Shown piece after piece: positions 3,455 through 57,053 of a stretch of DNA of 64,000 nt. The translations under genes and the position numbers were made by a program. Each line of letters starts with the position of its first letter. Position 1 is the first letter of the stretch. Under the pieces are notes generated by a model that ran no database searches, was not told where the DNA came from, and worked only from the letters and a program-made list of their open reading frames with translations. Origin of the DNA: Bolinopsis microptera (Eukaryota; Ctenophora; Tentaculata; Lobata; Bolinopsidae); assembly GCF_026151205.1 (NCBI RefSeq), contig NC_087075.1, positions 14,271,628-14,335,627 on the forward strand, in the 5' to 3' direction.

Positions 3455-6400
3455 CTGGGGGAGAGGGGTTATTAGTAGAGGGAGAGGGGTTATTAGTAGG
3501 GGGAGAGGGGTTATTAGTAGGGGGAGAGGGGTTATTATCTGGGGGAGAGGGGTTATTAGTAGGGGGAGAGGGGTTATAAGTAGGGGGAGAGGGGTTACTA
3601 GTAGGGGAGAGAGGGGTTATTAGTAGGGGAGAGGGGTTACTAGTAGGGGGAGATGGGTTATAAGTAGGGGGAGAGGGGTTACTAGTAGGGGAGAGAGGGG
3701 TTACTAGTAGGGGAGAGGGGTTACTAGTAGGGGGAGAGGGGTTATTAGTAGGGGAGAGAGGGGTTATTAGTAGGGGGAGAGGGGTTATTAGTAGGGGGAG
3801 AGGGGTTATTAGTAGGGGGAGAGGGGTTACTAGTAGGGGAGAGAGGGGTTATTAGTAGGGGGAGAGAGGTTATTAGTAGGGGGAGAGGGGTTAATAGTAG
3901 GGGGAGAGGGGTTATTAGTAGGGGGAGAGGGGTTATTAGTAGGGGGAGAGAGGGGTTATTAGTAGGGGGAGAGAGGGGTTATTAGTAGGGAGAGAGGGGT
4001 TATTAGTAGGGGGAGAGAGGGGTTATTAGTAGGGGGAGAGGGGTTATTAGTAGGGGGAGAGGGGTTATTAGTAGGGGGAGAGGGGTTATTAGTAGGGGGA
4101 GAGGGGTTATTAGTAGGGGGAGAGAGGGGTTTCAATCGCGCGACGGGCGTCCTCCTCGCGCAATACAATTACACGTAAGCGCAGACCTTTAACCGGCGAT
4201 AATTTCGGATATGAAATACATTTTTCCATGGGACTAAAAGCAACTGATAGTTATCACTCCCCTCTATCAGAAACAACTGTAAAGTCAATTTCGAGAGAAT
4301 TTTCCTGAAGACCCCCCTGCCCCCTTAAAACAGCAATGCCAATCGATGCCAATTTTACCAAAAGTTGAGGAATAAATAGAGAAATAACCAATAATTGCCC
4401 CAATTAACTAATTAACTAATTACCTCGACCTCGAAAGTACAAGGATACACCTCCACAAACTCCGCCTCCGTCATCCACTTAGCATCATTCAACATAGCCC
4501 TGAGTCCCTCGTACAGGTCACTGTTATAGAACGCTAGATCAGCCCAACACAGCTCCCTCCCCAGCAAGTACTTCCACACGTGTCTGCACAGTTTAATAGG
4601 CAGGGTCTGCTTAAACCAGAGGGCCAGTCCCAGGAACCTGCCACACGCTCGGAACCCCTCTATTCTCTGCTTGTAGAGGAGAGAGTTGTTGTGGTAGAGG
4701 GAGGGGTCCCAGGGGAGGGGCGACATGTTCTCAGCTTGTTCGGGGAGTCTCCCCGGACACTGGAATAGTGGGAGAGTTTTGTCTGGGTACTTGGTCTTGT
4801 CTCTGAGGGAGGAGCACAGGACACTGAACCATCCTGAGGGAGGAGGGTAACTAGTAGTATAACTATGGTGACTAGTAGTGTAACTAAGGTAACTAGTAGT
4901 GTAACTAAGGTAACTAGTAGTGTAACTATGGATGAGGGTGCCGGTTAATGTCGCCATTATGAGGAATGTACTGTTATTTGGTTCTTTATTTTCTTAATGT
5001 AAGATAAGAAAGCAGCTTTGTGCTTTACACTATCTGTTATCTAGAACTTGAGTGTGCCATTAACTAATTAACTAATTATCTCACCTCTATTCACACCAGG
5101 ACCCCCACCCTCTTCTCCCTCGAACTTAACGCTGTAGTTAACAGGGTGGAGTTGTGTCATCTCCAACAGAGCTTTAATAGAGTCAGATAGAAGTCTGCTT
5201 CTATTAATGTAGATGTGTAGATTGTAGATACGAGGAGGCAGATCCCTCATCTCCTGCCTGTTCTGGGATTGTACCAGCAGTTTAACTTCCTTTATCTGCC
5301 TGATGAACCTAAACATGGTACTGTTAGATACGTGAAGTAGTGTACAGTGTACAGTGTACAGTGTACAGTGTACAGTGTACAGTGTACAGTGTACAGTGTA
5401 CAGTGTACAGTGCACAGTGTACAGTGTACAGTGTACAGTATACAGTGTACAGTGTACAGTGTACAGTGTACAGTGCACAGTGTACAGTGTACAGTGTACA
5501 GTGTACACTCTCCTTTACAGGTGAAGTGATAGACATTATCTTTTTATTGGTTTCCAAAATCCAGAGTGAACTGAGGTTGTAAGTTGACCTGAATTTAAAC
5601 CAGTGTTGGTAAGTTGGTTAGTATCTGAATTCTGAGAACAGTTGGCTGTGAGCCAGTGAGTTGACAAGATGATAAACTACAGTCTAATATTTCTCAGAGA
5701 AACACAACTGACCTTGCAGTTTTACCAGAGTAGCAAGCCTTGAGATTAAGAACACTATCCTTTTCAATACCAGGTCCCTCTCCCAGGTAGTACGTACTAA
5801 ATACCCGGGTTGTGGACTCAAACGAGGACAGGAACTCTGCAGGAGTGTATTTAAGGAGCTTGCTCTTTCTTTTAAGAGCCTGTTTCAGGGACTCTTTCCC
5901 TCTCCAGCAGTTAGCTGACTCCTTCTTATCAGATGTGTAGACGGTGGAGAAGAGAGTTTCTCTGGTTGCCATGGGAGTGAGGAGGTGAGGTTGTAGAGCC
6001 AGAGGGAGCTGTACGTGTACAGGCCTGGGTGGGGAACAGCCAGTCAGAGGGAGCTGTACGTGTACAGGCCTGGGTGGGGAACAGTCAGTCAGAGGGAGCT
6101 GTACGTGTACAGGCCTGGGTGGGGAACAGTCAGTCAGAGGGAGCTGTACGTGTACAGGCCTGGGTGGGGAACAGTCAGTCAGAGGGAGCTGTACGTGTAC
6201 AGGCCTGGGTGGGGAACAGTCAGTCAGAGGGAGCTGTACGTGTACAGGCCTGGGTGGGGAACAGTCAGTCAGAGGGAGCTGTACGTGTACAGGCCTGGGT
6301 GGGGAACAGTCAGTCAGAGGGAGCTGTACGTGTACAGGCCTGGGTGGGGAACAGTCAGTCAGAGGGAGCTGTACGTGTACTGGCCTGGGTGGGGAACAGT

Positions 6401-57053: not shown

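Follow-up and report, generated by a model that had tools for sequence, protein, structure and literature searches.

Why do tandem arrays in introns so often carry a copy of the splice site beside them? The question is raised by a 64-kb stretch of genomic DNA (henceforth termed the window), of which tandem repeats detected by TRF make up 41%, versus 16.5% of the next 200 kb. A first-pass annotation had claimed that arrays in the introns of one large gene, and of a gene nested within it, repeatedly include the adjoining donor or acceptor together with some exonic bases, that this is far more than random placement in introns would give, and that a cause tied to splice junctions might lie behind it. 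The claim can only be judged with a defined gene, an explicit null and a second sample, for which we used the 200 kb following the window (the held-out sample).

The host gene encodes a UBR5/hyd-like HECT E3 ligase. Its exons give collinear tblastn matches to human UBR5, with 35–44% identity in the HECT exons; Pfam places a HECT domain on two exons, and the exon order is UBR5-like. The exon chain assembled with our own gene finder, a hidden Markov model trained on array-collapsed sequence of 264 kb, amounts to 2266 aa and is stop-free. Exon borders are throughout ab initio predictions of this model rather than RNA-derived. Two smaller genes are nested on the opposite strand: for the UNC-93-like gene, a Pfam search with 316 residues returned no match, and the GPCR-like gene has its nearest relatives, 78–88% identical, in public contigs. 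Elsewhere on the plus strand (58866–63481), Pfam searches point to a GDSL-lipase-like open frame with a retroelement frame (endonuclease and reverse transcriptase) downstream of it. The genes and the junction-associated arrays are collected in Table 1.

Table 1. Genes, splice-site arrays and two- or three-copy duplications in the window (window coordinates).
Feature	Position	Strand	Evidence or intact copies
Host gene, UBR5/hyd-like HECT E3 ligase	703–56878, approximate extent, 5' end uncertain	−	tblastn, Pfam, gene model
Acceptor array, 45 bp × ~148, 25 exonic bp	6000–12661	−	TRF, sequence
Acceptor array, 62 bp × ~8, 20 exonic bp	13060–13571	−	sequence, gene model
Nested UNC-93-like gene (name from first-pass annotation)	16.4–19.5 kb	+	first-pass annotation
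Donor array of nested UNC-93-like gene, 63 bp, 9 copies, 24 exonic bp	17554–18401	+	GT in 9/9
Acceptor array, 45/51 bp × ~42, ~17 exonic bp, junction ambiguous	20797–22764	−	AG in 42/42
Two-copy acceptor duplication, weak exon support	24530–24639	−	gene model
Acceptor array, 52 bp, 20 exonic bp, in two pieces (28204–28714 and 36717–36999)	28204–36999	−	sequence
Donor array, 27 bp × ~54, 9 exonic bp	37888–39357	−	GT kept in 39/54
Two-copy donor duplication, 64 bp, ~26 exonic bp	39653–39772	−	sequence, gene model
Probable donor array, 88 bp × ~13, ~24 exonic bp	40111–41262	−	by eye; exon not predicted
Two-copy donor duplication, 53 bp, 49 exonic bp	42087–42193	−	sequence, gene model
Two-copy acceptor duplication, copies 67 bp apart	43760–43850	−	by eye; exon start predicted
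Acceptor array, 46/50 bp × ~39, 8 exonic bp	44118–45987	−	AG in 38/39
Donor duplication, 83–92 bp, 3 copies, 14 exonic bp	48308–48481	−	sequence, gene model
Donor array, mostly 66–76 bp, 10 copies, ~32 exonic bp	49807–50556	−	GT in 10/10
Nested GPCR-like gene	53681–54965 (53.7–55.0 kb)	+	PF00001 in 8/56 related proteins
Probable two-copy donor duplication, 76 bp, 19 exonic bp	56038–56186	−	by eye; exon not predicted

In the final automated run, 12 of the 29 window events with a period of at least 20 bp were junction-spanning, with periods of 27–83 bp. They divide equally into six donor cases (17.55, 37.9, 39.7, 42.1, 48.3 and 50.5 kb) and six acceptor cases (6.0, 13.1, 20.8, 24.5, 28.2 and 44.1 kb). 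The central observation of the first-pass annotation, that arrays in these introns copy the adjoining splice site, is therefore largely real, with two of the 12 cases doubtful. At 20.8 kb the predicted acceptor fell just outside the array in one gene-model run and inside it in two others; at 24.5 kb one run predicted no exon and another a weak one (score 5.6). The final run does place both junctions inside the repeat, as it does for the donors previously proposed at 17.55, 37.9, 39.7, 42.1 and 48.3 kb and the acceptors at 13.1, 28.2 and 44.1 kb. The donor array listed at 49.8 kb was borne out as junction-spanning, but the donor in use lies at 50.5 kb. For the proposed donors at 40.1 and 56.0 kb an open frame and a donor are visible by eye, but no exon is predicted. 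The two-copy acceptor at 43.8 kb, which the automated duplication scan of the window did not list, is visible by eye and coincides with a predicted exon start. Arrays said to abut junctions at 3.5, 13.65 and 26.0 kb indeed end 2 bp, 6 bp and (for the last) 3 and 12 bp from predicted exons, and none spans a junction. The exonic part of the units had been put at 7–38 bases; the measured range is 8–49.

The largest array, 6.7 kb at 6000–12661, was absent from the earlier list. Its unit consists of ACTGACTGTTCCCCACCCAG, an acceptor with pyrimidine tract and CAG, followed by the exonic bases GCCTGTACACGTACAGCTCCCTCTG, and AG is present in 147 of the 147 copies found when up to 4 mismatches were permitted. 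Most of these copies lie within an open reading frame of 2244 codons (12428 to 5697, minus strand) that reads the exon's own peptide, so splicing to most upstream acceptors would also keep the product open, except for the topmost copies, which are not in frame. The frame could be coding if an upstream acceptor were used.

Intact splice sites are the rule in the other arrays as well. The exon at 13.1 kb aligns to human UBR5, and AG is kept in 7/8 copies there, as it is in 10/10 and 5/5 copies of the two pieces of the 28.2-kb array. In the 37.9-kb array, copies 2–4 beside the used donor are without GT, while the first and most others keep it. Read by eye, the copies at 39.7 and 40.1 kb show GT; the two ends of the 39.7-kb duplication have CTACTT in common. 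Among the matches listed, with at most 12 other scores per array, copies scored equal or nearly equal to the site in use, the exception being 42.1 kb (5.3 versus 7.4).

Several arrays were themselves disrupted. An element of about 8 kb (28707–36724) with inverted ends of about 48 nt (94% complementary) later split the 28.2-kb array, and a hairpin element of about 270 bp with G-run/C-run ends (17747–18016) splits that at 17.55 kb; in these two cases the intron grew after the array had formed. The 8-kb element carries a tandem array of its own, 17 copies of 282 bp (30375–35204). The array at 49807–50556, whose used donor lies at about 50,520, is interrupted by a 21-bp minisatellite (50001–50050). 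Similar CACGTGACGTCATCACAAC-like minisatellites recur at 49175–49407, 51120–51425, 51945–52079 and 55015–55124, as if dispersed.

Beyond the window, one instance is an acceptor array in a gene for glycine N-methyltransferase (GNMT), with about nine copies of 85 bp that include 39 exonic bases (L022:6782–7563, minus strand). Alignment of the predicted protein with GNMT structures continues without a break through the array junction (E 3.9e-27). The final run found six junction-spanning cases in the held-out sample, of which GNMT is the one that was checked, and supported, by homology; those at 109397 and 151402 look doubtful on reading the sequence. Two earlier calls (78452 and 108111) were false exons inside arrays and disappeared in the final run. 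An (AGGTAAG)x60 array (L022:6260–6678) lies some 11 bp past a predicted exon of GNMT, its donor-like motif on the strand opposite the gene.

Whether these cases exceed chance depends on the null. The first-pass annotation had compared them with arrays confined to the inside of introns, which is inappropriate, since a 45–90-bp unit dropped anywhere in a short intron will often straddle its border, and such a duplication is silent if the outer splice site is used. Any seeming enrichment at splice sites has to be weighed against the short intron of the ancestor rather than the intron as it stands today. We collapsed the arrays, predicted exons on the collapsed sequence and, for each array, drew random positions within its own intron for a footprint of equal length, counting it as spanning when it crossed exactly one junction. 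Collapsed introns had length quartiles of 209, 506 and 1588 bp.

Under this null, spanning events numbered 12/29 in the window versus 7.5 expected (P 0.029), 6/49 versus 3.7 in the held-out sample (P 0.15) and 18/78 versus 11.2 in both together (P 0.013), or 16/51 versus 10.3 with introns above 3 kb left out (P 0.024). Over half of the window's count is thus expected, because compared with the collapsed introns the units are long (27–88 bp). The excess claimed earlier is present in the window, but "far more than expected" overstates it, and the held-out excess is not significant. With strict exons (score at least 8) the counts fell to 9/29 versus 6.1 in the window, 3/49 versus 2.6 in the held-out sample and 12/78 versus 8.7 combined (P 0.13). 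Arrays with periods of 10–19 bp gave no spanning excess (3/102 versus 4.4 expected). With TRF arrays and a null spread over the whole region, an initial version had yielded 14/70 versus 9.3 (P 0.07), with 5/40 versus 4.7 in the held-out part. An intermediate automated count of 20/80 versus 12.0 (P 0.004) was rejected, as it was inflated by false exons inside arrays and wrong periods.

A hand count of the window gave 14/24 spanning versus 7.9 expected (P 0.004), and 12/22 versus 7.6 (P 0.028) without the 20.8- and 24.5-kb cases. Its 24 events are the 31 scanned window events of period at least 20 bp minus seven: four pieces of, or inserts in, interrupted arrays (18017, 36717, 49807 and 50001), an array that lies within the 8-kb element (30375) and two with TRF periods below 20 (15461 and 42853). 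Several intron lengths and subtracted element sizes were entered by hand, as were exonic lengths in the unit-composition test described below. The hand-counted excess shrinks with the intron length assumed, to 14/24 versus 9.3 (P 0.03) for ancestral introns of at most 300 bp and to 14/24 versus 11.0 (P 0.14) for at most 200 bp.

Arrays that lie wholly inside introns also tend to sit near junctions in the window, where 6/17 end within 15 bp of one versus 2.4 expected (P 0.006); the held-out sample has 1/43 versus 0.8, and both together 7/60 versus 3.2 (P 0.018). Spanning and near-junction events combined amount to 18/29 versus 9.6 in the window (P 0.0001), 7/49 versus 4.6 in the held-out sample (P 0.16) and 25/78 versus 14.2 overall (P 0.0004), or 19/78 versus 11.1 with strict exons (P 0.005). 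Measured against random placement on the same introns, the proximity of arrays to splice sites proposed in the first-pass annotation thus holds in the window, whose arrays lean clearly towards junctions, whereas the held-out sample shows no significant leaning. The leftover leaning in the window is a factor of about 1.4–1.9, and its cause could be short ancestral introns or a junction-coupled process.

The shape of the signal was examined in coverage profiles of array footprints (period at least 10 bp) relative to junctions. At window donors, coverage rises from 0.019 in the exon, 40–80 bp from its border, to 0.104 in the final 10 exonic bp; the intron has 0.111 in its opening 10 bp and 0.129 at 400–1000 bp. 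No peak marks the junction, where the level resembles that of the deep intron before dropping into the exon. A hump is seen 10–60 bp into the intron and is more pronounced in the window than in the held-out sample. At window acceptors it reaches 0.14–0.225, versus 0.027–0.067 at 80–200 bp and 0.104 at 400–1000 bp.

Unit composition adds a further constraint. Across 15 window cases, the exonic part of 8–49 nt makes up a mean fraction of 0.38 of the unit, and the distribution is non-uniform (KS P 0.004) through a shortage of exon-rich units. This shortage is what a splicing filter predicts, as an excess of copied exon would disturb splicing. Exonic edges bunch at 18–28 nt (8/15 versus 3.0 expected, P 0.003, in a bin chosen post hoc). 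Ten of the 15 units are not multiples of three, as chance gives.

We also counted words across the assembly (264.65 Mb, 232 contigs). The donor word AGGTAAGT forms 1478 close pairs (starts 14–44 bp apart) versus 40 for the reversed word, with single counts of 10758 versus 7965. Among the matches listed, 100 such pairs come from 11 places on contig 1 and a single place on contig 2, a clustering by which array copy number inflates the pair count; the count is compatible with a donor-word excess and not a measure of one. The matches listed also include a 32-bp unit with a donor that is found at two sites far apart on contig 1. A test of splice-like word density in footprints was set aside, as some footprints hold several copies; at thresholds 4, 5 and 6 it had given donors at 1.45, 1.13 and 0.17 times background (reversed words 0.94, 0.29 and 0) and acceptors at 1.81, 2.53 and 5.14 times background (reversed 1.42, 1.37 and 1.11).

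Taken together, random duplication in short introns combined with a splicing filter explains most cases, and the best account is probably that short tandem duplications arose at random and were retained when an intact exon-proximal splice site remained. In this minisatellite-rich genome, duplications with units of about 20–120 bp would arise at roughly random places, and some would grow to tens or hundreds of copies. Selection would purge those that alter the mRNA. A duplication reaching from exon into intron would leave one complete splice site beside an intact exon, and the message would be unchanged if this exon-proximal copy were used, such that these events could survive like purely intronic ones. 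If introns in general were still short at the time, before arrays and transposons lengthened them, a sizeable proportion of the surviving arrays must straddle or adjoin a junction. Counting against this account are the spanning excess, the near-junction interior arrays, the 10–60-bp hump, the bunching of edges at 18–28 nt and the AGGTAAGT pairs, inflated as these are by copy number, together with the ab initio nature of the exon borders.

The main rival is a mutational process tied to splice junctions, in which transcription-coupled nicks, R-loop ends or RNA-templated repair would seed duplications at or near them. The window counts (18/29 versus 9.6 spanning or within 15 bp, P 0.0001; 14/24 versus 7.9 spanning by hand), the post hoc bunching of unit edges and the greater abundance of close pairs for donor words than for reversed words all speak for it. 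We nevertheless consider such a process rather unlikely to be the main cause: the held-out counts are not significant (7/49 versus 4.6), coverage lacks a peak at the junction itself, the spanning excess falls with strict exons and with shorter ancestral introns, and arrays of period 10–19 show no excess. The junction-tied cause suggested by the first-pass annotation thus draws on a genuine leaning of the window arrays but is unneeded for most cases. Its quantitative form, in which duplications would be seeded at junctions or within 15 bp of them at about twice the neutral rate, in units covering some 18–28 nt of exon, appears just as tentative, if not slightly more so; on that reading the birthplaces of minisatellites would be shaped by transcription or splicing itself.

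Selection might instead favor extra splice-site copies, as spare sites or for protein-length variants. Most copies do keep intact sites, and the 2244-codon frame from 12428 to 5697 reads the exon's peptide. Yet selection is not needed to keep copies intact in arrays this homogeneous, and 10/15 window units are not multiples of three, with the topmost copies of the 6.0–12.7-kb array out of frame; we regard this explanation as improbable. Equally improbable is that the pattern is an artefact of the gene model, with coding-like arrays drawing false exons and junctions to themselves. Two held-out calls (78452 and 108111) were of this kind before the final run removed them, 109397 and 151402 look doubtful, and 20.8 and 24.5 kb are ambiguous; against this, the junctions at 13.1 kb and in GNMT rest on homology, and the gene model gives the exons of the 12 window cases scores from 5.6 to 37.7. 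Insertion of intron copies by an introner-like process is the least credible reading and very improbable: the 32-bp donor-bearing unit at two distant places on contig 1 suggests that some units are dispersed, but the window units are built from local exon and intron sequence.

Introns with 8 to 147 near-equally scored acceptors or donors represent a natural experiment on splice-site choice. The conserved protein should require use of the exon-proximal copy, which would fit exon definition better than simple scanning for the first AG. The density of arrays here also permits a test of whether minisatellites are born randomly or near junctions.

Splice sites within repeats have been encountered before. 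The interferon gene 6-16 contains a minisatellite with repeated splice donors, as here, yet at a single locus, unlike here. Another study reportedly treats tandem repeats that alter human gene structure, and a further paper is said to concern intron gain by tandem duplication of splice motifs. Introners are near-identical intron copies dispersed over many genes; the window units, as read around the arrays, are built from local exon and intron sequence.

Among the papers listed in our search of published work, the close parallels were the lancelet "mirages" and the idea of intron gain by duplication; work on intronic minisatellites of C. elegans, in its accessible part, is not about junction copies (PMC4039745). 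Intron gain has been ascribed to tandem duplication of AGGT or proto-splice sites (PMC2891723). As in the window, a short tandem duplication copies splice motifs, but there a duplication within an exon makes a new intron, whereas here the border of an existing intron is duplicated. Lancelet mirages, as described in the accessible parts of two papers, are tandem repeats across exon-intron boundaries at both donors and acceptors, with units of 10–160 bp, in Adh3, the globins BflGb6 and BflGb9, troponin C and PGBD5; many, but not all, copies keep AG or GT, the authors' data suggest normal splicing, and mirages were proposed as a source of new introns (PMC3087553, PMC3902484). The units in the window and in GNMT likewise span the exon-intron boundary, and those in the window occur at both borders with lengths within 10–160 bp. 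Splicing is apparently normal in lancelet mirages; for the window, the predicted exon chain is stop-free. The window differs from what is described for lancelets in density, with about 14 cases over two overlapping genes, in copy number, with up to about 148 copies, and probably in taxon, since HECT exons only 35–44% identical to those of human UBR5 suggest a lineage other than lancelets. The structure of junction-spanning arrays is thus already known from lancelets, and the window provides a dense case of it.
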